Source of the DNA: a virus
Virus record (IMG/VR): IMGVR_UViG_3300032299_000226
Coordinates: 1-36,570 of that record
Length of the DNA: 36,570 nucleotides
Reading direction: 5' to 3' (one strand)
Made by a program: the position numbers and the translations under genes. The notes below the pieces were generated by a model. The model saw nothing but the letters and a program-made list of their open reading frames with translations, was not told where the DNA came from and did not search any database. The first letter of the stretch is position 1. Each line of letters begins with the position of its first letter. Below are positions 1,749-34,578 of the stretch, in pieces.

Positions 1749-1793
1749 AAAGATTCTTGTTGCACTTCAAATTTTATTAGGAACAATGCCGAA

Positions 1794-2735
1794 ATGATCA
1801 CACCACAACAAAAAGCAGAATCGGTAGTCGGACCAGTAGAATGGCAATCGGAAAATCACGGCCTATGCCGTTGCCCAGGTGAAGCTGCGCACACCAGCAA
1901 TACGAGAGTGAGGGACACAACTGTATTCGTTGACTCAGTCCCAACGATCTTCTGCTGGCACACAAGTTGCCAAGCATTCAGGAGTGAGGCGAACTATAAG
2001 CTGCGCAAACTAATTTTAAACGATCCGCTGTACAGACCGCTTGTTCCACCGATGTCAACCAACGGAACTAATCCGATGAAGCTGGTGATAGAGAAGGATG
2101 CTGAGAGTGAGATAATCCAACGAATCGCAGTCATTGCGCAATCCAATCGAGCCAGGTACTTGGCACATTATAATTGGGACCCAGCCGATATGTTTGACCA
2201 ATCGCCTGCAAGAGTTGGTGATGAGCCAAGCGATCAGTACAAAACATTTGTTTCGCTGTTTCAACCTAACGACATCGTTTGGATCGGAGCGGTTAAGGAT
2301 AGTGGCAATCATCCGCAAAACTTCCGTGCTGCTTCCGAGTGGTTGAAGTTGGATGAGCCAGTTGGGCAGTTCATTACTGGATCGGCATTCAAGGAGGGAA
2401 CGATCAGCAGGTCGAATGATAATGTTGAAGTTCGCAGATTCCTAGTGGTTGAGAGTGATGAGTTGTCGAAGCCTGAGATCGGCGCGGTGTTCCAGCTTAT
2501 GCGCGATCTATTCAAGATGAAGCTTTATGCGGTTGTGGACACGGCAGGCAAGAGTCTTCATGGTTGGTTTGATGCCATACCGAATCCTGAGTGGGAGAAG
2601 CAATTGAAAGCGTTCTTGGTTCCGATGGGATGCGACCCAGCAACTTTTAAACCGAGCCAACCAGTAAGGATGGCAGGAGCAATGAGGGATGAGAAAACAC
2701 AGAGCCTGCTTTGGTTCTGCAAGGAGGGAAAATAA
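1794..2735 (+). CDS. DNA primase, archaeo-eukaryotic primase (AEP)-like, with N-terminal zinc-binding region
   Basis: 313 residues. The N-terminus has a Cys/His cluster (C25, C27, H33, C54, H56, C59) spaced like a primase zinc ribbon. Further on are a hydrophobic strand ending in acidic residues (VVESD, 218-222) and a small-x-His motif (KSLHGWF, S254/H256), the order of AEP motifs I and II; motif III is less clear. Such proteins make RNA or DNA primers for phage replication. The gene is followed directly by a RepA-like ATPase whose ribosome-binding site lies inside this gene's end, so they form a primase-helicase pair. The ATG at 1794 was taken because AGGA lies upstream, although the spacing is long. 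Confidence 0.65.
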   Translation: MITPQQKAESVVGPVEWQSENHGLCRCPGEAAHTSNTRVRDTTVFVDSVPTIFCWHTSCQAFRSEANYKLRKLILNDPLYRPLVPPMSTNGTNPMKLVIEKDAESEIIQRIAVIAQSNRARYLAHYNWDPADMFDQSPARVGDEPSDQYKTFVSLFQPNDIVWIGAVKDSGNHPQNFRAASEWLKLDEPVGQFITGSAFKEGTISRSNDNVEVRRFLVVESDELSKPEIGAVFQLMRDLFKMKLYAVVDTAGKSLHGWFDAIPNPEWEKQLKAFLVPMGCDPATFKPSQPVRMAGAMRDEKTQSLLWFCKEGK

Positions 2736-2736
2736 T

Positions 2737-3753
2737 ATGATCGAGCCAGCCGTAGCATTAGGACTGAAACCATCTGTGGACCAATGGCCACCGATTAAAA
2801 CGTATAGTGAATTGCTAACCGATAACATCAAAGAGCCAGATGTGCTTATCGAGGGGATATTGCACCAGGGAGGTAAGCTGCTCCTGGGTGGAGGGAGTAA
2901 GGCGTTCAAGAGCTGGAGTCTGATTGACCTTGCGCTGTCGTTACACTCAGGCACTCCTTGGTGGGGGCAGAAGTGTACCAAGGCCAAGGTGCTGTTCATT
3001 AACTTTGAGATTCAGGAATGGTCGTTCCGCTCGCGACTCGCTGACGTAATCGCAGCTAAGGAATTGAATGGGAAGGTGGATGACTTTGACGTATGGACGC
3101 TCAGAGGATATGCAGCCGACTTGACATTGATCCGCCCAATCATCGAGAAGCATATCGAGGGGCGCGGTTACCAAGCGATTATCCTTGACCCTAACTATAT
3201 GCTGATGGGTGACCGCGACGAGAACTCCGCTGGGGATATGGGTGGGTTGATGAATGAGTTCGAGTACTTGGCAACTCGTTATAACTTGTCAGTAATCCTA
3301 TCCCATCACTTCTCCAAGGGTAACAAGTCCAGCGCAGAGGCGATTGATCGGTTTAGTGGCAGCGGTGTCTTTGCTCGCAATCCAGACTCGCTCGTAGTGC
3401 TTACGGCACATGAGGAGGATGAGAAGACGTTCACCTGTGAGATGACCCTGCGCAACTTCCCACCTGTCGATCCGTTCGTAGTGCAATGGAAGTACCCCAT
3501 GTTTAGCGTCAACTATAACCTGAACCCTGATGAGCTGAAACAAACTGGCGGAAAGAAGAAGCTGGTAGGCGATGCAAGGCTCTTAAAGGAGATGGGTTCA
3601 CGCGAGTTCACGGCCTGCGATCTGTTCCGATTTGTGCAGGAAAAGTTCCAAGTTTCGGAGTCAACCGCCAAAAGGCATGTAAAACGCATGACACAAGCTG
3701 GCAAGATGCTCAAGGAGAATGGGTTATATAGCGCGAATCAGTCGGTTTTCTGA
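2737..3753 (+). CDS. RepA-like hexameric ATPase / replicative helicase
   Basis: 338 residues from ATG 2737, chosen because AAGGAGG (2721-2727) lies at good distance and the preceding gene stops at 2735. Longer in-frame starts upstream would overlap the primase and lack a site. The fold is RecA-like: Walker A GGGSKAFKS (51-59), an FINFE strand (88-91), Walker B AIILDPNY (137-144, D141), and a SHHFSKG sensor-type motif (159-165). The last about 60 residues look like a winged-helix DNA-binding domain (EFTACDLFRFVQEKFQVSES onward). The role is probably to unwind DNA at the phage origin together with the primase. Confidence is high for the ATPase and moderate for helicase activity. Confidence 0.8.
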   Translation: MIEPAVALGLKPSVDQWPPIKTYSELLTDNIKEPDVLIEGILHQGGKLLLGGGSKAFKSWSLIDLALSLHSGTPWWGQKCTKAKVLFINFEIQEWSFRSRLADVIAAKELNGKVDDFDVWTLRGYAADLTLIRPIIEKHIEGRGYQAIILDPNYMLMGDRDENSAGDMGGLMNEFEYLATRYNLSVILSHHFSKGNKSSAEAIDRFSGSGVFARNPDSLVVLTAHEEDEKTFTCEMTLRNFPPVDPFVVQWKYPMFSVNYNLNPDELKQTGGKKKLVGDARLLKEMGSREFTACDLFRFVQEKFQVSESTAKRHVKRMTQAGKMLKENGLYSANQSVF

Positions 3754-3844
3754 AGTGTCAATTCGCGGTGTCAAAATGGGTTCTTCTACACTAGTGTCAT
3801 TCCTATATATATAAAGAACCAGAACCCACGGAGGAACCAAGGGA

Positions 3845-3872
3845 AAGGGGGACTCCTTAGTCCGTCCCCCTT
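3845..3872 (+). terminator. GC-rich hairpin, possible terminator
   Basis: AAGGGGGAC (3845-3853) pairs perfectly with GTCCCCCTT (3864-3872) around a 10-base loop. The bases after it are C/T rich but lack a clear T run, so termination is possible rather than certain. It stands between the helicase gene and the next small genes. Confidence 0.4.
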
Positions 3873-3991
3873 CCCCTTTCACCTGCGGTGTTCCGAAGTG
3901 AATCTTCAAAGCAGCGGGACCAGAAAAGAAATGACACGGCATGGGTGGCATCACCGCTTCCACCGCCTTCACCGCCCCAACCTGCCAAGGC

Positions 3992-4021
3992 TTGGTGGTG
4001 GGTGGATGGGTGTGGTACAAT
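3992..4021 (+). promoter_or_regulatory. Possible sigma70-type extended -10 promoter
   Basis: TTGGTG (3992-3997), an 18-bp spacer and TACAAT (4016-4021) with the extended TG at 4013-4014. Transcription would start almost at the ATG of the 47-residue gene (4028), giving a leaderless or very short-leader message. The region is G/T rich, so a chance match is possible. Confidence 0.25.
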
Positions 4022-4027
4022 GTGCGA

Positions 4028-4171
4028 ATGAATAACTCAAAGCCAGGACTCTACGCCAATATCAACGCTCGCCGTAAGGCTGGCATCAGCAGAAGCAAAG
4101 CGAAAAGCACAATATCCCCCAGGGTGTATAAGGTGATGAAAGCGAAAAAGGGTGGATTCGCGCCACGATAG
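4028..4171 (+). CDS. Small basic phage protein of the KPGLYANI type
   Basis: 47 residues from ATG 4028. The N-terminus NNSKPGLYANINARRKAGIS and Lys/Arg-rich tail match a small conserved protein seen in many tailed phages, whose function is unknown; it may be a minor virion or nucleic-acid-binding protein. The upstream in-frame extension to 3941 is low-complexity and ignored. It overlaps the following gene by 20 bases in another frame. Confidence 0.65.
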   Translation: MNNSKPGLYANINARRKAGISRSKAKSTISPRVYKVMKAKKGGFAPR

Positions 4172-4427
4172 AGATCTGCTCAAGCAGGCATACCGCTTCC
4201 TTGCCCTGCTACAGCGTGAGAATGCACAGCTACATGCCGTTCTCAGGCAGTTGGGGCAATTGGTCGATGACATGAACAATAACTGCTCCTACGAGGTTTT
4301 CGAGCATGAGTGGGCTGAGATCACCATAGCGATGGCCAAGTTGTCAGAATTCTTTTCCAGCCATCAGAAAGATCTGGCAGAGCTAAAGGATTCAGATATA
4401 TTCAATGACGAGGTTGATGAGCTATGA
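4152..4427 (+). CDS. Hypothetical protein, helical / coiled-coil
   Basis: 91 residues from a GTG start at 4152. No ATG precedes the predicted helical region LLKQAYRFLALLQRENAQL, so the GTG is needed to include it. The pattern of leucines and charged residues suggests a coiled coil. The C-terminus is acidic. It overlaps the previous gene by 20 bases and the next by 4 (ATGA, 4424-4427), so it belongs to the same small operon. No family is recognised. Confidence 0.6.
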   Translation: MDSRHDRDLLKQAYRFLALLQRENAQLHAVLRQLGQLVDDMNNNCSYEVFEHEWAEITIAMAKLSEFFSSHQKDLAELKDSDIFNDEVDEL

Positions 4428-4660
4428 GTACACAAGACTTACCCTGCAATAGTCCGAGGCGCACTCCTGGTGCGAACAAGAAGTTTGTAGTGAGGGCCTG
4501 CCAGAATGGGCAGTCGAAGACCATTAGGTATGGTGACCCCAAGATGACCATTAAGAAGGGTAACCCTGACCGCAGGCGTAGTTTCAGGGCTAGGCACAAG
4601 TGTGACTCAGATAAGCCTAGCAAGATGACCGCCAGGTACTGGTCATGCAAGAATTGGTAG
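4424..4660 (+). CDS. Conserved phage protein with FRARHxCD...ARYWSCKxW signature
   Basis: 78 residues. The C-terminal half (YGDPKMTIKKGNPDRRRSF, then RARHKCDSD and MTARYWSCKNW) matches a small conserved module found in many marine and freshwater tailed phages, alone or fused to structural proteins. Its biochemical function is not established. Two cysteines flanked by basic and aromatic residues could bind metal. It is translationally coupled (ATGA) to the gene before it. Confidence 0.7.
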   Translation: MSTQDLPCNSPRRTPGANKKFVVRACQNGQSKTIRYGDPKMTIKKGNPDRRRSFRARHKCDSDKPSKMTARYWSCKNW

Positions 4661-4664
4661 GCAT

Positions 4665-4823
4665 ATGAAAAAAGGCTTTAAAAGGCCACGCAATAGAGCA
4701 AGGATACCTCTAAAACGCGTTGATAAAGCAAACCAAGTAGAGGACAGCGGGTCAGTCAATAAAACCCCTATTATAGACAGACCGCTAGGGAATAGGGCTT
4801 GTTGCTGCTTTATAGGTAAATAA
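4665..4823 (+). CDS. Hypothetical small basic protein
   Basis: 52 residues: a Lys/Arg-rich N-terminus (KKGFKRPRNRARIPLKRV) and a triple-cysteine end (RACCCFIGK). It starts 4 bases after the previous stop, as expected in a packed operon, but the ribosome site (GGTAGG) is weak. No family is recognised. It is the last rightward gene before the repeat array and the leftward cluster. Confidence 0.4.
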   Translation: MKKGFKRPRNRARIPLKRVDKANQVEDSGSVNKTPIIDRPLGNRACCCFIGK

Positions 4824-4837
4824 TCTGATTTCTTATC

Positions 4838-4953
4838 CCTTATGGGACAAATTTGGATTTTGTAAATCTTAGATTTCCAATTTCGGATTTTTCTTCCTTA
4901 TGGGGCAATTTCTGATTTTTCCCTCCTTATGGGGAAGATTTTGAAATTCCTTG
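4838..4953. repeat. 29-bp tandem repeat array, about 4 copies
   Basis: Units start at 4838, 4867, 4896 and 4925. Copies 1, 3 and 4 open with CCTTATGGG and run on to an AT-rich tail resembling AATTTCGGATTTTT; copy 2 is diverged (TCTTAGATTT). The array lies exactly where rightward and leftward genes converge, and copy 4 enters the 3' end of the leftward gene. Regularly spaced repeats in such a place can be binding sites for a regulator or replication protein. Confidence 0.75.
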
Positions 4954-5145
4954 TTCTTTAGCGCTAGCGCTTTCAGCGCTATTAAGCGCGCTTAACTCTT
5001 GTGCTATTCTATAGCGCTCCCATCGTGCCCTTACCGCGCGCTGCGCCTGCTCCCTGGTGCGAGCCTTACTAACTCCCTTTACGCTTCCACCCTTCTTCCC
5101 CATTGCTGAGAAGTAGGCGCGCACTTGTTCGGTAAGTTCGCTCAT
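4927..5145 (-). CDS. Small KGG-motif, probable nucleic-acid-binding protein
   Basis: 72 residues. The core (YFSAMGKKGGSVKGVSKAR, followed by EQAQRAVRARWERY) resembles the small GKKGG...ARW proteins common in phages and plasmids, thought to bind DNA or RNA. The C-terminal 25 residues are Ser/Ala/Glu rich and coincide with a cluster of AGCGCT palindromes, so that end is probably unconstrained as protein. It lies after a leftward terminator and has a weak promoter of its own. Confidence 0.6.
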   Translation of the reverse strand: MSELTEQVRAYFSAMGKKGGSVKGVSKARTREQAQRAVRARWERYRIAQELSALNSAESASAKEQGISKSSP

Positions 5146-5184
5146 GTTTCGATTCTCTTTTAAATTGTGATTAGGTCAATATAA
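5146..5184 (-). promoter_or_regulatory. Possible leftward promoter for the KGG-motif gene
   Basis: On the minus strand TTGACC is followed after 16 bases by GAGAAT (4 of 6 matches to TATAAT), just upstream of the ATG at 5145. The downstream position after a terminator makes a local promoter sensible, but the -10 is poor. Confidence 0.3.
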
Positions 5185-5218
5185 TAAAATCCCTCCCAAG
5201 GTTTGAACTTGGAAGGGG
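5180..5218 (-). terminator. Leftward intrinsic terminator
   Basis: Reading leftward, a hairpin (CCAAG 5196-5200 pairs with CTTGG 5208-5212, extended after one mismatch by 5191-5194 with 5214-5217) is followed by ATTTTATTAT. This is a typical stem plus T-rich tail. It would end most transcripts of the leftward cluster after the 28-residue membrane gene. Confidence 0.6.
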
Positions 5219-5231
5219 AGATGAGGGGAAA

Positions 5232-5318
5232 CTACTTATTCTCTAATATCGTTCCCACTACTGCTACCAGGATTGAACCTAGGGCAATCCCACCCACGAA
5301 TACCCATGCATCATTCAT
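5232..5318 (-). CDS. 28-residue membrane microprotein
   Basis: MNDAWVFVGGIALGSILVAV then VGTILENK: a single transmembrane helix with a short charged tail. It starts within the stop of the upstream gene (ATGA, 5315-5318) and has GAGGAAG at a good distance upstream, two independent supports for translation. No family can be named at this size. It lies directly before a leftward terminator, closing the operon. Confidence 0.6.
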   Translation of the reverse strand: MNDAWVFVGGIALGSILVAVVGTILENK

Positions 5319-5539
5319 GCCAATACTTCCTCTCTCGCGCATGAGTTGCGCATCACGTAATTGATTGCCCCCATGGTTTCCGCATTCCAATTATAGCAAG
5401 CGCGGTCCTGCTCCAAGTTCATTCTAAATATCATAGAATCCTCTTGGCCCATCGTAGCGTTCTCTACAGCTATTCGTCGAGCCTTGGGGAACTTCCTTAG
5501 GGCTGCTTCTACTGCTTCTGATCTTGTAGTGTGCTTCAT
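5315..5539 (-). CDS. Hypothetical protein
   Basis: 74 residues, mixed charged sequence beginning MKHTTRSEAVEAALRKFPKA. No family is recognised. The ATG immediately follows the TAA of the upstream gene (zero spacing) and the stop overlaps the next start as ATGA, so it is a firm member of the leftward operon. Confidence 0.65.
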   Translation of the reverse strand: MKHTTRSEAVEAALRKFPKARRIAVENATMGQEDSMIFRMNLEQDRACYNWNAETMGAINYVMRNSCAREEVLA

Positions 5540-5677
5540 TTATGCTTTCTCCTTTTCTTTTTTTATTATCGCCGTCCACTCCATTCCATTGCGAATCGTC
5601 CACAAAGACGCTCGACGGAACGTAGTGAAACGCGCGAAAAACTGCCCTTGCGAGTTGTAAACGCAGTAATATGTCAC
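5540..5677 (-). CDS. Hypothetical small protein, GTG start
   Basis: 45 residues (VTYYCVYNSQGQFFARFTTF onward) with alternating aromatic and polar residues suggesting a small beta fold. GTG at 5677 overlaps the stop of the Gp88-like gene (GTGA), matching the coupling style of its neighbours. Longer starts at 5782 or 5773 exist (AAGGGG lies before 5782), but that extension would run about 100 bases inside the conserved 3' end of the upstream gene. No family is recognised. Confidence 0.5.
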   Translation of the reverse strand: MTYYCVYNSQGQFFARFTTFRRASLWTIRNGMEWTAIIKKEKEKA

Positions 5678-6378
5678 GACGCGCTCGCGATCTGCGCCAC
5701 GCGCTTTTTCGACATGCCATGCGGAATAAATCCCACGATGACTGAGCGACCCCCACGCGAACAAAGGCGACATGTTGCGCATGTCACCCCTTCGCGTTTT
5801 TGCGCAGGACAAACGACAACGCGCCTACCTTGTGGGGTTTGCGTATTGTCTTCCGTTCCTGCTGGAAGGATCGTCACAACTGGAGCGATCCCCAAGGCTG
5901 CAAGCTTATCAGCATGCGCTAGGCCATTAGCGGAAAGGTTAATGACAAACCCCTCCTTATTCGCTGCGCATATCGCGTCACGATTCTTTTCCGCGTTCTT
6001 ATCCTGCTCCTTTAATACTGGTTTATGGGTATAGGTGAATCCCCTTCTTCCGCGATTGGCTTTCGCAAGCTTGGCCAATAGATCGCCGTCAACGTAGTTA
6101 TTGTCACCAGGAAGATCGCCAACCTGGTTATGTCTCCAAAGTTGACCGCTTGGCAGCTTGGCGATTGATTCGCACAAGCCATCAAACGTGATCCCACGAT
6201 CTGCGCGGTTAACCGCGTTCCAATGGAAACGCAAGTTTCCGCCCAAACCATAGCACCCCTTTTCTTTTAATGGGCATGCGTCTGGGCAAGTACTGCTTCC
6301 ACTTGTCGAGACTGGTATATGGCCAGTCTTCACGTTTGAGGAAGATAGGGTAAGGTGAACTAAGGGAGGTAAGTTCAT
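5674..6378 (-). CDS. Gp88/DUF7227-like Cys-rich phage protein
   Basis: 234 residues. Recognisable features: SSNVKTGHIPVSTSGSSTCP then DACPLKEKGCYG (C31, C35, C42), LWRHNQVGDLPG (80-91), GFTYTHKP, NLSANGLAHAD, and a C-terminal Cys set C190, C200, C203, C206 (CATCRLC). This pattern recalls the Gp88/DUF7227 family of phages and plasmids. Two cysteine clusters at the ends of a conserved core suggest a zinc or iron-sulfur site; that is inference, as the activity is unknown. Its start overlaps the stop of a 26-residue membrane gene (ATGA) and its stop overlaps the next start (GTGA), so it is the centre of the leftward operon. Confidence 0.75.
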   Translation of the reverse strand: MNLPPLVHLTLSSSNVKTGHIPVSTSGSSTCPDACPLKEKGCYGLGGNLRFHWNAVNRADRGITFDGLCESIAKLPSGQLWRHNQVGDLPGDNNYVDGDLLAKLAKANRGRRGFTYTHKPVLKEQDKNAEKNRDAICAANKEGFVINLSANGLAHADKLAALGIAPVVTILPAGTEDNTQTPQGRRVVVCPAQKREGVTCATCRLCSRGGRSVIVGFIPHGMSKKRVAQIASAS

Positions 6379-6455
6379 TTGATCTTCCCCATCATGAACC
6401 CAAGGCAGATACCAGCGAAGAATATGATTGCTATTGTTTGGGGTAGGTTATTCAT
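6375..6455 (-). CDS. 26-residue membrane microprotein
   Basis: MNNLPQTIAIIFFAGICLGF followed by MMGKIK: one hydrophobic helix and a short basic tail. The ATG directly follows the TAA of the upstream gene (6456-6458), and the stop overlaps the Gp88-like start as ATGA. Both junctions and a GGGAG upstream support a true gene. Function unknown. Confidence 0.6.
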   Translation of the reverse strand: MNNLPQTIAIIFFAGICLGFMMGKIK

Positions 6456-6680
6456 TTAGGCATTCTCCCTTTTAATCTCTTCAAATTTCATCGTGAAAAG
6501 ATGAGTGGCAGCTTTCAATATTCCCAACGCGCGCACTACATCGATATCATCTAAAATCTCTATGATCTTTTTATAGGTTGGGGAAAAATGCGAATAGGAA
6601 AGAATCAGCTCTTTTGTTTTCGCATATGTTTGAACGTCTTTAACCGCGCTCGCTTCGGTTTGTGTATTGGTGTTGCTCAT
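6456..6680 (-). CDS. Hypothetical protein sharing a duplicated leader
   Basis: 74 residues from ATG 6680. The first 14 residues, MSNTNTQTEASAVK, are nearly the same as those of the next gene upstream (MSNTLTNTEASAVK), and the DNA is also similar, so the 5' ends were copied. The rest is helical and charged (IIEILDDIDVVRALGILKAA). It starts 4 bases after the upstream stop and has no strong ribosome site, which suggests coupling. A longer in-frame start at 6725 would enter the upstream gene and lose the shared leader. Confidence 0.6.
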   Translation of the reverse strand: MSNTNTQTEASAVKDVQTYAKTKELILSYSHFSPTYKKIIEILDDIDVVRALGILKAATHLFTMKFEEIKRENA

Positions 6681-6684
6681 AAAT

Positions 6685-6810
6685 TTATTTAACAAAGGGG
6701 AGAATGATTCCCACAATAACGGCAACGAATGCTGCCCACATAAATAAAGAAGTGATTATGCGAGTGACTTTGACCGCGCTCGCTTCGGTATTGGTTAGTG
6801 TGTTGCTCAT
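6685..6810 (-). CDS. 41-residue membrane microprotein, first gene of the leftward operon
   Basis: The leader MSNTLTNTEASAVKVTR is followed by a strong transmembrane helix (IITSLFMWAAFVAVIVGIIL) and PFVK. The leader is duplicated in the following gene. A near-consensus leftward promoter lies just upstream. The GAGAG immediately before the ATG could serve the ribosome. The protein probably inserts in the host inner membrane with its N-terminus inside. Confidence 0.6.
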   Translation of the reverse strand: MSNTLTNTEASAVKVTRIITSLFMWAAFVAVIVGIILPFVK

Positions 6811-6816
6811 ACTCTC

Positions 6817-6844
6817 AACATACGCTAACGGCTTGTGATGTCAA
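6817..6844 (-). promoter_or_regulatory. Leftward sigma70-type promoter for the microprotein operon
   Basis: On the minus strand: TTGACA (6844-6839, all six matches), a 16-bp spacer, TATGTT (6822-6817, four of six). It points at the 41-residue gene 7 bases further on, giving a very short or leaderless transcript. It sits in the divergent gap before the terminase genes, the natural control point of this cluster. Confidence 0.6.
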
Positions 6845-6891
6845 GGGGTTTTTTAAAAATATTTTCATGGTAATATATGAGGATGGAAGCG

Positions 6892-7551
6892 ATGCCAGGA
6901 GATAAGCCACAAGTTGAGCCACTCGCACAAGACAAAGGGAAAAACGGCAAACCCTCCCTATATAACGATCAGATTGCGCAGGAAGTAATAGATGCATGTC
7001 GCAGCGGTTTCACTATTGAGAAGGCAGGCGCGCTGGTAGGACTATCGCCTAGCACAATAAAATCATGGTGTACTCGCAAGCCTGAGTTTGCGCGTAGGGT
7101 GGAGACTGCGAGAAAAAGGCATGAGCTGGCATTGCTGCGCGACATAGAGCTGGCAGGCCAAAAGAGTTGGCAGGCTAAAGCGTGGATGGCGGAAAGGATC
7201 TATCTGTACAGCGTGCCAAGCGCGCGCGTCCAGGTGAATGGCAGCGTTGAGCACGGACTAAGCGCAGGACTAGCGCAGATATTAGCAGGATCTCTATCGA
7301 AAAAAGAAAAGCCTGCACAAGTAATTGAGACGCAAGCGATTGAAGAGAGGATTAGTTTTCCTCATATTAAAGACAATACTTATTGTGCGACAAACGAAGG
7401 CGAGCCAAAAGTCGAGCAGCAAACCCAACCCAACCCTGAACCTATCGCAGCTCCCAGGCGCAAGCGTCACGTTCCAATGCGCAGGCGAGTTCCGCGCAAG
7501 GTTGGGGTAGGGGATACGACCACGCCCCTCCCTACCCCCCCATCCCCATAA
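6892..7551 (+). CDS. Terminase small subunit
   Basis: 219 residues from ATG 6892, chosen because AGGA (6880-6883) lies 8 bases upstream; an alternative start is 6877. The N-terminal half has a helix-turn-helix of the terminase small subunit type (IDACRSGFTIEKAGALVGLS, then PSTIKSWCTRKPEFA), which recognises the packaging site. The C-terminal part is unusual: low-complexity, rich in Pro, Arg and Gln. It directly precedes the large terminase gene, which supports the call. The DNA near its end contains long C runs. Confidence 0.75.
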   Translation: MPGDKPQVEPLAQDKGKNGKPSLYNDQIAQEVIDACRSGFTIEKAGALVGLSPSTIKSWCTRKPEFARRVETARKRHELALLRDIELAGQKSWQAKAWMAERIYLYSVPSARVQVNGSVEHGLSAGLAQILAGSLSKKEKPAQVIETQAIEERISFPHIKDNTYCATNEGEPKVEQQTQPNPEPIAAPRRKRHVPMRRRVPRKVGVGDTTTPLPTPPSP

Positions 7552-7606
7552 AAAAATTTCCATACCCCCCCAAGTATTTGCGACACAAAATAAAAAGAGG
7601 TCTATA

Positions 7607-9043
7607 GTGGGCAAAACAACCAAACCCCCCAAGCGCACACCAGAGGAGATTTTAGCGGAAATCCAATCGCCAGCAGGATTCGCAAAACATGTACTTGGAC
7701 TTGAGTTATATGATTGGCAGAGAAAGGTTTTGCGCGACTTACAAGACAAAGATTGCCGAGTTGCGCTCAAAGCAGCCAACGGATCAGGCAAGACCAGCAC
7801 AGTAATCGCCTCCATTTTAATTTGGCATGCGTTCTGTTTTAAGGGAAGCATCGCTACGACAACCGCTGGCGTTTGGAGGCAGGTCGAGAAACAATTGTGG
7901 CCTAGCCTGCGCAAGCACATTGCGCGAGTGGGCGGAAATTGGGAAGTAACGTCAGGCGAAATCCGCTACATATTTCCAGACGGAACGATGAGCAGGATCG
8001 TTGGGTATAGCGCAACAGACCCAGGTCGAGCGGAAGGGTTCCATGCCGATGACCACGACACCATGCCGTTGCTGATTGTGGTGGACGAAGCCAAGTCAAT
8101 TCCTGACCCACTCTTCGAGGCTCTGTGGCGTTGCCAACCCACTCGCGTATTGCTGGCCTCCAGCCCTGGTGCGAGTACAGGCGCGTTCTATCGCGCATTC
8201 ACCAAGGAGTCTGCGATGTGGAAGAAGCACACAGTAACAGCGTTTGACTGTCCTCACATCACCAAGGCGCAGATCGACGAGGTGCTACAACGATATGGCG
8301 AGAAGCATCCCCTCACTCGCTCTATGGTCTATGGCGAGTTTGTGGATATCGGATCGGAAAGCTTGGTCATTAACTACAACTCCCTACAAGGCTGTCAGAA
8401 CAGCCCACCTGACTTTAAGCCTGGGAGCAGGACCGCTGGGGTAGACTTTGCAGCAGGTGGCGATTGCAACGTCCTGTGCATTCGAGATGGCAACAAGATC
8501 CTTCCCATCATCGCATGGCGCGATAAGGACACGATGGCAGCAGTTGGCAAGTTTATAGTTGAGTTCAAGAAGGCTGGGTTAAAGCCAGAGGACATCTATG
8601 CGGACGCGAGTGGATTGGGTATGCCGATGTGCGATGCGCTGGCCGAGGCTGGGTGGAGGGTGAACAGGGTAAACTTTGGTGGCACGCCTAACGATGCCGA
8701 TGCCTACACCAACAAGTCGGCGGAGATGTGGTTTAACATGTCAAAGAAGATTGGGGATCGCGAGATCATCCTTCCAGAGGATGACGATGACCTAATGGCG
8801 CAATTGACCTGTCGCAGAACTGTGACCAACAGCAGGGGTAAGCTTGGGGTGGAATCTAAGGATTCCTTGCGTAGTAGGGGTATCGCCAGCCCTGATCGAG
8901 CGGATGCGTTGGCATTGTGCCTGGATGGTGGTAATATCCGCTGGGACTTGACTTTCCCCACGGAACGGCCAACTTGGAAGACGTTAAACCAAATGATGGA
9001 GTCGCACGACCCTGTCATGGCTGGTTTTGACGCAGGAGGATAA
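7607..9043 (+). CDS. Terminase large subunit (ATPase-nuclease)
   Basis: 478 residues from a GTG with AGAGG upstream. The motor that translocates and cuts DNA into the prohead. Walker A AANGSGKT (56-63), Walker B LLIVVDE (155-161), coupling region LLASSPGAST, and the RNase H-like nuclease with D280 (AGVDFAAGGD), D333 (ADASGLG) and D430/D433 (SPDRADALAL). All catalytic elements are present and the length is typical. It lies between the small terminase and portal genes. Confidence 0.95.
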   Translation: MGKTTKPPKRTPEEILAEIQSPAGFAKHVLGLELYDWQRKVLRDLQDKDCRVALKAANGSGKTSTVIASILIWHAFCFKGSIATTTAGVWRQVEKQLWPSLRKHIARVGGNWEVTSGEIRYIFPDGTMSRIVGYSATDPGRAEGFHADDHDTMPLLIVVDEAKSIPDPLFEALWRCQPTRVLLASSPGASTGAFYRAFTKESAMWKKHTVTAFDCPHITKAQIDEVLQRYGEKHPLTRSMVYGEFVDIGSESLVINYNSLQGCQNSPPDFKPGSRTAGVDFAAGGDCNVLCIRDGNKILPIIAWRDKDTMAAVGKFIVEFKKAGLKPEDIYADASGLGMPMCDALAEAGWRVNRVNFGGTPNDADAYTNKSAEMWFNMSKKIGDREIILPEDDDDLMAQLTCRRTVTNSRGKLGVESKDSLRSRGIASPDRADALALCLDGGNIRWDLTFPTERPTWKTLNQMMESHDPVMAGFDAGG

Positions 9044-17024: not shown

Positions 17025-18395
17025 ATGCCGAATTTTACAGCAGGAACCAGCTTTGGTGCAAACGACACAGTAACCAATACGAAGCTTAACGCTTTGATTG
17101 CGGATGCTGTAATCAACCCTGAGTGCGCATTAAGCATCAACTCTGGCACGATTGGCACGCTTTCCTGCACCAGGGGTACTATTGCTACGTTTAATAGCAC
17201 GACTGGAACTGTTGCCACGCTCAATACCACTACTGGATCTGTCCAAACATTAAGTGCTGGCACATTGGCAACGAACCTAACTGGCGGTACGTACTCTGGA
17301 TTAATCAATTCGAGTACTGGTACGTTCTCTGGATTAATCAATTCGAGTACTGGTACTTACTCTGGATTAATCAATTCAAGTACTGGCACATTTACTGGAT
17401 CGATTGGAGGATCTGCAAATCTTACGTCTGGAACAATTCAGACATTAACAGCAAGCACCCTTACTGGAACACTTACTGGCGGAACCTATTCTGGATCGAT
17501 TGGAACAGCCAGAAGTTTTACTGCTGGAACTATTAACAATTTCACCTCTTCCAGCAATGCAACAATATCTGGACTTACAGTTGGTACAGGTAATCCATCT
17601 GGATCAGAACAAAATGTAGCAGTTGGAATCAGCGCACTTACAAGCAATACAAGTGGAGATAATAATTCTGCTTTTGGACGATTTGTATTAAATTCAAATA
17701 CTACTGGATCATATAATTACGCATTTGGAAATTTTTCATTAAATGGAAATACATCTGGCCGAGAAAATAGCGCATTTGGTGCTTCAGTTTTATCAGGAAA
17801 TACTACTGGATCATATAATACAGCATTTGGTAATTTGTCATTAAATACGTCTTCAACTTCAACAGCGAATGTTGCGGTTGGATATCAAGCACTATTTGCA
17901 GCATCAGGATCTGGAAGCTTGAATACTGCAATTGGATATGTTGCTGGTAATTCAAACACAACTGGATCAAATAATTCGTTTATTGGAAATAGCGCACAGG
18001 GCGCAAGTGCGAGCGCAAACAATGCAATAACACTTGGTAATGGTTCTATTGCAACACTTCGTTGCCAAGTTCAATCAATCACATCTCTTTCGGACAGACG
18101 AGACAAGAGTGAAGTAAAAGATCTTTCCGCAGGACTTGACTTTGTTGGAAAACTTAGACCAGTAAGTTTTGTTTGGAACACAAGAGACAAGGCGAAAGTT
18201 AATGTTCCTGATTCTGGATTTATTGCCCAAGAACTTCTTGAGGCTCAAGAAAAAACTGGAATTGTTATCCCCAACTTGGTGAGCCAAGAAAATCCAGAAA
18301 AACTTGAGGCTGCATATGGAACACTTATTCCAGTACTTGTGCAGGCCATTAAGGAATTGAAGGCAAAGGTTGAATTGCTTGAGAGCAAGAAATAA
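17025..18395 (+). CDS. Tail fibre with C-terminal S74-type intramolecular chaperone
   Basis: 456 residues. Residues 90-123 contain three 11-residue repeats (TYSGLINSSTG type). From about 190 come Asn/Ser/Gly-rich repeats with NTTGSYNTAFGNLSLN-like units resembling trimeric YadA-head turns. The C-terminus is a peptidase S74 domain: the Ser-Lys pair is S356/K361 in LSDRRDKSEVKDL, followed by GLDFVGKLRPVSFVW and SGFIAQEL, and a coiled coil at the very end. Such domains fold the trimer and then cut themselves off. It is the likely host-binding protein. The middle section is notably AT-rich. AGGAG precedes the ATG. Confidence 0.85.
   Translation: MPNFTAGTSFGANDTVTNTKLNALIADAVINPECALSINSGTIGTLSCTRGTIATFNSTTGTVATLNTTTGSVQTLSAGTLATNLTGGTYSGLINSSTGTFSGLINSSTGTYSGLINSSTGTFTGSIGGSANLTSGTIQTLTASTLTGTLTGGTYSGSIGTARSFTAGTINNFTSSSNATISGLTVGTGNPSGSEQNVAVGISALTSNTSGDNNSAFGRFVLNSNTTGSYNYAFGNFSLNGNTSGRENSAFGASVLSGNTTGSYNTAFGNLSLNTSSTSTANVAVGYQALFAASGSGSLNTAIGYVAGNSNTTGSNNSFIGNSAQGASASANNAITLGNGSIATLRCQVQSITSLSDRRDKSEVKDLSAGLDFVGKLRPVSFVWNTRDKAKVNVPDSGFIAQELLEAQEKTGIVIPNLVSQENPEKLEAAYGTLIPVLVQAIKELKAKVELLESKK
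17290..17391 (+). repeat. 33-bp in-gene tandem repeat, 3 copies
   Basis: The segment TCTGGATTAATCAATTC followed by GAGTACTGGTAC recurs three times with few changes, coding three 11-residue beta-repeat units in the fibre shaft. Near-identity at DNA level indicates recent duplication, a common way phages change fibre length. Confidence 0.8.
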
Positions 18396-33883: not shown

Positions 33884-34022
33884 TATTATAGCAGACATAT
33901 TTGGGGTTATTGCATGGATAACATTATTTGCAGCAATATTTGCATCCATGCTGGCATTCGGAGCGTACATAGTTTTAAAAGTAATTGATGTAATAAAGGA
34001 GATTGTAAATGGAGGAAAATAA
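33870..34022 (+). CDS. 50-residue membrane protein
   Basis: MQFVNIIADIFGVIAWITLF, AAIFASMLAFGAYIVLKVID: two closely spaced hydrophobic segments, hence one long or two short transmembrane helices, and a short charged end. AGGAG lies 5 bases before the ATG. It overlaps the preceding gene by 14 bases and the next by 14, and its end carries the next gene's GGAG site. Confidence 0.6.
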   Translation: MQFVNIIADIFGVIAWITLFAAIFASMLAFGAYIVLKVIDVIKEIVNGGK

Positions 34023-34578
34023 GTTCATTCAAAAGGTGCTGACTGCATCAGTAGATAGGTACGTCTTAACGCCGAGTCAATGCGACATGATTCGAACTGA
34101 TGCCGAGGTGATTGGCATGAAGCGAGCAACTGTCCTGAAAAAGGATGGTGGGACTAAGATTTCATTTACACGCACCTGCTCGTCCTGCTGGGTTCCGATG
34201 TCGCAACATTACAAATGGCTGCATTCGATCATGTCGGAACTTACGGCTGCAATTAACAAAGAGTACTGGAGGTTTGATGTGACTGGTATTCAGCAGTTGC
34301 AAATCCTGAAGTATTCTCCATTGCAGAAATTTTCTTGGCATTGGGACACATACTCAGGATCGGACAGGAAAATTACGAGTGTAGTTAATCTATCCGCTCC
34401 GCATGAGTATCTTGGAGGTGGCTTGCAGATTAAGGGCGATATCGAAAACGCTAAGTTTATCCGAGAGCAGGGCGCAGGCTGCTGGTTCCCTGCTTACCTA
34501 GAACATCGTGGACGCGCTCCTATATGGGGTACGCGCTGGGTGCTGGTGGCTTGGCATACTGGTCCTGCCTGGAGATGA
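34009..34578 (+). CDS. 2-oxoglutarate/Fe(II)-dependent dioxygenase, prolyl-4-hydroxylase type
   Basis: 189 residues. KFSWHWDTYSG carries the H111-x-D113 pair, PAYLEHRG the distal H166, and GTRWVLVAW the 2OG-binding R176; KITSVVNLSAPHEYLGGGLQ is the strand between. All iron and 2OG ligands are present. Sequence spacing fits P4H-like phage oxygenases, which hydroxylate protein residues, though DNA or other substrates cannot be excluded. AAGGAG lies before the ATG. Coupled to the next gene by ATGA. Confidence 0.8.
   Translation: MEENKFIQKVLTASVDRYVLTPSQCDMIRTDAEVIGMKRATVLKKDGGTKISFTRTCSSCWVPMSQHYKWLHSIMSELTAAINKEYWRFDVTGIQQLQILKYSPLQKFSWHWDTYSGSDRKITSVVNLSAPHEYLGGGLQIKGDIENAKFIREQGAGCWFPAYLEHRGRAPIWGTRWVLVAWHTGPAWR

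Follow-up and report, generated by a model that had tools for sequence, protein, structure and literature searches.

In the window, by which we mean the whole 36,570-base virus record analysed here, a minus-strand operon starts with a gene whose first 14–17 codons, the tag, recur at the head of related operons. In a working set of 43 operons, 39 of them distinct, this tag is common to at least 17 unrelated gene bodies, and it goes with the position in the operon, not with the gene family. Within the tag lies a 17-nt core, ACCGAAnnnAGCGCGGT, which is conserved as nucleotides. With somewhat better than even confidence, we read the whole as an early accessory operon of the host-takeover type, headed by an exchangeable leaderless expression socket and used in hosts that are probably Verrucomicrobiota.

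The operon, its phage and its relatives

An earlier sequence-only reading had proposed seven coupled genes running from one promoter to a terminator. All seven minus-strand ORFs are present with the proposed sizes and junctions. Just upstream of the −35 box, an A+T-rich block (6845–6870) may act as an UP element; over 16 unique leaders, the 22 nt before this box are 84% A+T. The σ70-type promoter TTGACA-16-TATGTT (6817–6844), the boxes of which are conserved in the 16 unique leaders, is followed by a 6-nt linker (6811–6816) from the −10 box to the first ATG. The first slot is filled by a 41-aa tagged membrane microprotein (6685–6810), and a 4-base gap separates it from a 74-aa tagged protein (6456–6680), of a family that occupies the first slot of 15 further operons (12 distinct). 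A TAAATG junction leads to a 26-aa transmembrane (TM) microprotein, TM-A (6375–6455), ATGA to a 234-aa DUF7227 protein with a radical-SAM-like model (5674–6378), and GTGA to a 45-aa protein with a GTG start (5540–5677). The next junction, TAAATG, introduces a 74-aa cassette protein (5315–5539) in a second variable slot, present in some relatives and absent from others, and ATGA the 28-aa TM microprotein TM-B (5232–5318). A terminator-like stem-loop of 10 pairs, 6 of them GC, with a T-rich tail, lies at 5191–5217. The two head ORFs have their first ~14 residues in common, a duplication that the sequence-only reading had missed.

Taken singly, the signals at both ends are of a common sort. Chance alone predicts 5.6 promoter-like sites in 3500–8000, where 8 were counted, this promoter being the best of them; for terminator-like sites as a group, the count does not exceed that in shuffles (4 versus 4.8). 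The operon reading nevertheless stands above chance because the promoter is conserved in all 22 first-lineage contigs and the tiny genes are under purifying selection. The proposed membrane microproteins are indeed real conserved genes, with pN/pS of 0.14–0.23 across relatives (TM-A, 0.18 over 19 loci; a second TM-A family, 0.23; TM-B, 0.14 in 9 loci); the value for the 45-aa gene is 0.24. Past the terminator, the minus strand encodes a small basic KGGSVKG-rich protein of 72 aa (4927–5145) with no significant family match. Most relatives with a stretch long enough to include this position have the gene there too. A tandem 28-base repeat (TRF score 93) follows just past it at 4878–4934, and similar repeated runs seem to come after this gene in relatives.

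Its PHROG matches mark the window as a tailed phage, with primase/helicase, head-tail adaptor, major head protein, tail fibre, endolysin and exonuclease. Among named phages, the nearest to its large terminase are Akkermansia phages (35–37%), and of 17 loci in GTDB genomes that encode relatives (36–50% identity), 16 lie in contigs with Verrucomicrobiota in the title; judged by these sequence relationships, the host therefore probably belongs to that phylum. A near-identity search of phages with half of the window gave no match. Elsewhere on the plus strand are a tail-fibre-like protein (17025–18395, PHROG tail spike/fibre matches), with a 33-base tandem repeat at 17286–17400, and a 2OG-Fe(II) oxygenase homologue (34009–34578, PHROG 61).

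Relatives, designated by L numbers, were gathered by DUF7227 (12 loci, then the best 80 of 573), by terminase (33 loci), by the leader pattern (12) and by GP88 (43). The first lineage comprises 22 contigs with a readable leader, the window included. Together with the second lineage and L064 it makes up the 43 operons, which four near-duplicates reduce to 39 distinct ones.

A leader predicted to give a leaderless mRNA

The geometry of the leader is nearly fixed. In 22 of 22 first-lineage contigs, 34 nt separate the −35 box from the first ATG and the linker behind the −10 box is 6 nt long, within the ~6–7 nt that mark leaderless genes. In the second lineage, 15 distinct first-position leaders have a TANNNT box at 6 nt (14 leaders) or 7 nt (one leader) from the ATG. 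Over the 16 unique leaders, the majority fraction is 0.91 for the −35 box, 0.94 for the −10 box, 0.80 for the spacer and 0.65 for the linker. With so short a linker, the usual distance from a −10 box to the start would put transcription initiation on the A of this ATG and make the first mRNA leaderless. The AAGAGG present in some linkers is a misplaced Shine-Dalgarno-like run.

The predicted 5′ end is open and of biased composition. The first 20 nt of the leader mRNA are unpaired at 0.91, compared to 0.65 for other ORFs, and the stretch from the ATG to the core is 89% A+C with 6% G. Folding of the tag into a stable RNA hairpin was considered and dropped, as MFE z averaged −0.42 across 43 leaders. 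So was the idea of leaderless starts as a general host habit: with crude starts, none of 174 ORFs in host-like stretches had a −10-like box at a 6–7 nt linker. In the window, the endolysin start (27781, plus strand) also has a weak −35/−10 layout near its ATG, possibly by chance.

This layout resembles that of known leaderless genes. As described in PMC12340547, leaderless genes of Deinococcus-Thermus carry a TANNNT −10 box near the ORF start, and the lambda cI mRNA is given as leaderless in PMC9031893. As far as these sources describe them, the box near the ATG and the expected start at the ATG are alike here. The difference is that one fixed leader (−35 box, AT tract, CA-rich start and core) serves unrelated genes in one slot. 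CA repeats 3′ of the start codon are reported in PMC9031893 to enhance leaderless translation, an effect for which this source and PMC3879156 both cite Martin-Farmer and Janssen 1999. Akkermansia and another Verrucomicrobium appear in a listing of Shine-Dalgarno-scarce organisms in PMC10783764.

The core of the tag is conserved as nucleotides

The first tag of the window, MSNTLTNTEASAVKVTR (6760–6810), consists of the CA-rich start and the invariant core. The core occurs in the window as exact matches only in the two tagged ORFs, at 6773–6789 and 6643–6659. Other matches in the window have 3 mismatches and fit chance, and a core regulon was dropped.

To compare selection on bases and on amino acids, codons were counted with the alignment anchored on protein only, leaving aside near-duplicates (L030, L040, L018 and L167) and loci in which the core was not recognised (L147, L154 and L159). 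Over the eight codons of the core, pS was 0.16–0.20, against 0.46–0.49 in the neighbouring TM-A of the same loci, and pN/pS was 0.74–0.82, against 0.18–0.23 in TM-A. Threonine is encoded by ACC in 35 of 35 cases and alanine by GCG in 37 of 37, whereas the adjoining valine codon is free in its third base (GTT 20, GTC 9, GTA 5, GTG 1). Synonymous sites in the core are thus held fixed: the core is conserved as nucleotides. With every leader drawn from a single phage group, repeated gene conversion could account for part of the low divergence of the core.

Several exceptions count against the socket reading. In the window and in L031, the copies in second place keep a good core although they are not at a 5′ end, and the first copy of L031 is degraded. 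The core is also degraded in L147, L154, L159 and L155, and no tag was seen in L148, L153 and L156, so that the tag is not indispensable. The 28 close GP88 loci (L142–L169) include 24 with a tag or tag-like start, the other four being these three tagless loci and L165, which is ambiguous.

The strongest rival reading sees in this core a DNA operator. The dyad ACCG-N9-CGGT would be the binding site of a phage repressor silencing the operon, and the tag would be a by-product. Three features suit an operator: the dyad is centred on the free codon, the third bases of the core are fixed regardless of the amino acid, and the core is just downstream of the expected transcription start. Its distribution fits less well. 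Copies are found only in tagged ORFs and at none of the other window promoters, and their distance to the start varies, the core beginning at nt 19, 22, 25 or 28. A copy is also retained in second-place ORFs. No repressor was identified. We regard the operator as unlikely and favour a role of the core in expression of the first gene.

The fixed part of the operon

Behind the tagged genes, the operon is built around the 234-aa protein, which had been called Gp88-like. In sequence it belongs to Pfam DUF7227 (PF23872; 285 bits for a curated cut-off of 27, E 4e-85) and not to the GP88 family (PF17338), which was not listed for it at E up to 1. What holds of the earlier name is a structural kinship. 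The protein in the same slot of L037 is a Pfam GP88 member (108 bits, cut-off 24.4), as are those of the second lineage. Foldseek against viral models with the DUF7227 AF2 model (pLDDT 94.4, pTM 0.92) retrieved GP88 (3e-4) and Gp37/Gp68-like proteins (6e-4), and the GP88 model (pLDDT 76.8) retrieved DUF7227 in turn (2.7e-5). The kinship rests on structure because hhalign of the two families (27%) covered just the C-terminal Cys stretch.

Both models resemble radical SAM enzymes. In VIA-align, the DUF7227 model gave QueE (Z 6.4), EpeE (6.0) and a viperin-like protein (5.6), and the GP88 model a viperin-like protein (5.8), lysine aminomutase (5.3) and TYW1 (5.2). The barrel ranks first for both: the top 8 aligned PDB chains for DUF7227 and the top 4 for GP88 are radical SAM barrels. 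These best scores are nevertheless below Z 8, with Z 6.4, rmsd 4.4 and 163 aligned residues for DUF7227 on QueE 5th5, and Z 5.8, rmsd 3.6 and 152 aligned for GP88. The canonical radical SAM cluster motif is CX3CX2C; here it is CX3CX6C in the window and CX3CX10C in L012. Foldseek against the PDB gave no match under 1e-3 for DUF7227, and searching PDB sequences with the DUF7227 profile gave, at best, an unrelated entry at E 0.99. Because of the Z scores under 8 and the non-canonical Cys motif, we call these proteins radical-SAM-like and not members of the superfamily. The earlier suggestion of metal binding nevertheless appears plausible, possibly through an Fe-S cluster, given this predicted fold and seven cysteines (31, 35, 42, 190, 200, 203 and 206 in the window protein) that are invariant in 62 sequences, an alignment made of the best part of the 80 loci and the earlier ones.

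The small membrane genes accompany this protein closely. Among tag-leader operons bearing the enzyme gene, a set without the four contigs that have no enzyme in reach (L014, L018, L028 and L184), TM-A is upstream in 37 of 39 and TM-B downstream in all 39, and the 45-aa homologue is present in 38 of 39. Further exclusion of L030, L040 and L167 leaves 36 distinct operons, with TM-A in 34 and TM-B in 36. Two dissimilar families serve as TM-A, and the enzyme slot holds either DUF7227 or its structural relative GP88. In L036, a relative with a 75% terminase (minus strand, 1764–4026), two genes take the place of the enzyme. One encodes a 353-aa amidoligase (PF12224, E 9e-12), the other a 347-aa protein whose glutamine-amidotransferase (GATase) match is weak and sub-threshold. 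Behind them, the homologue of the 45-aa gene and a TM-B gene of 29 aa persist.

The association extends beyond these operons as an enrichment. The 75 diverged DUF7227 loci were reduced to 30 representatives, and the other ORFs of the same stretches served as controls. Of 27 loci (three with short flanks being dropped), 12 had a same-strand TM microgene in reach, versus 13 of 131 control ORFs (P = 7e-5); one was strictly adjacent upstream in 9 of 30 versus 13 of 224 (P = 2e-4). None adjoins DUF7227 in PAK_P1, P-SSP7 and P-GSP1. The expected co-occurrence of the microgenes with Gp88-like genes is therefore borne out within the group and as an enrichment elsewhere, not as a universal rule.

The sequence-only reading had suggested for this set a membrane-associated complex of the TM microproteins with a metal protein, perhaps serving host takeover or superinfection exclusion. 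The flanking of the enzyme by TM-A and TM-B, maintained across two TM-A and two enzyme families, speaks for such a complex, as does the enrichment near DUF7227 elsewhere. Against it, the pairing fails in the three phages just named, cassettes separate the partners in many relatives, co-transcription alone would explain the fixed order, and searches with PADLOC and NCBIfam gave no significant family match and hence no defence or exclusion family. We find the complex doubtful and a role in exclusion unsupported. Host takeover as the task of the TM microproteins and the radical-SAM-like protein is kept here as a working guess.

The tag marks a place at which genes are exchanged

Two families show how the tag depends on position. 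The GEYCxGG family is tagged where it comes first (L146) and untagged in 21 inner matches, two of which are in near-duplicate contigs; its members in L157 and L163 have variant tag-like N-termini. The family of the window 74-aa protein is tagged in all 15 operons (12 distinct) where it fills the first slot and untagged as the second gene of L150. Inner tagged copies are found directly behind another tagged ORF in the window, L011, L031 and L184, as though a newcomer gene had displaced them from the front. In the window this newcomer would be the 41-aa microprotein, whose body is found only in the window phage among the 43 operons.

This dependence also bears on the possibility that the tag acts as a protein-level signal, an N-terminal peptide directing early proteins to one partner or place. 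The frame is always kept, a TExSAV motif recurs, and first-slot proteins of unrelated kinds carry the tag, all of which a peptide signal would predict. Yet the same proteins are untagged when not first, the core has a pN/pS of 0.74–0.88 against 0.14–0.24 in the neighbouring genes, and its eighth codon encodes V, A or D while its third base stays C. A peptide signal is in our view quite improbable.

Pairwise comparisons place the junctions of exchange at the tag. L150 and L143 have bodies 93% and cores 100% identical, with promoters at 65% and next genes at 62%. Conversely, the window and L011 have promoters at 100% and cores at 96%, and their bodies are unrelated. L010 and L160 have bodies at 87% across the two lineages. 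Recent exchange on its own, with recombination homogenising a tag devoid of any role in expression, would also make the tag an exchange junction, and is very unlikely, given that promoters and the CA-rich part diverge beside an unchanged core and that an entire free codon varies within this core (GCG, ACG, TCC, TTA, GTG, AAG).

A model for loading genes at the first slot

Taken together, these observations fit the leaderless expression socket favoured above. In this model, transcription would start at a strong host-type promoter from the A of the first ATG, and ribosomes would enter the leaderless mRNA, helped by the unstructured CA-rich stretch and the invariant 17-nt core inside the coding region. 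Both would be translated as the N-terminal tag of whichever gene comes first. New cargo genes would recombine in at the tag, replacing the old first gene or stacking ahead of it, as in the 41-aa and 74-aa tagged ORFs of the window. The other genes, namely TM-A, the radical-SAM-like putative Fe-S protein (DUF7227 or GP88), the 45-aa protein and TM-B, would stay fixed, with small cassettes inserted by stop-start coupling. More tentatively, and with chances that we put close to even but slightly short of it, promoter, leaderless AUG, CA-rich enhancer and 17-nt coding element may form one unit, a 'plug-in socket', whose tag marks a genomic position and not a protein family, and which, in hosts where Shine-Dalgarno starts are rare, would load anti-host genes with no need of a ribosome-binding site.

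Beside the leaderless genes described above, the nearest parallel that we came across is in cluster K mycobacteriophages, where SAS/ESAS sequences stand upstream of the start codons of many genes per genome (PMC3203893). As described there, these too are conserved start-proximal sequences on genes of different families. The present element differs from that description in that it is translated and sits inside the coding region at one operon head, its core being downstream of the ATG. In the literature searched, we found neither DUF7227, PF17338 or phage gp88 by name, nor a position-bound leader tag or shared N-termini of phage early genes, nor anything related on promoter or early-gene shuffling.

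Phage early accessory genes are swapped constantly, and how newcomers gain a working promoter and start is usually obscure. A translated leader element that is fused to genes may show how arriving genes get expressed. The tagged first-slot bodies, of 17 families, are candidate anti-host genes, and leaderless translation in Verrucomicrobiota, members of which are reported to be Shine-Dalgarno-scarce, becomes directly testable with one reporter. Finally, DUF7227 and GP88, two unexplained phage families, are tied into one probable radical-SAM-like group with TM-microprotein neighbours.
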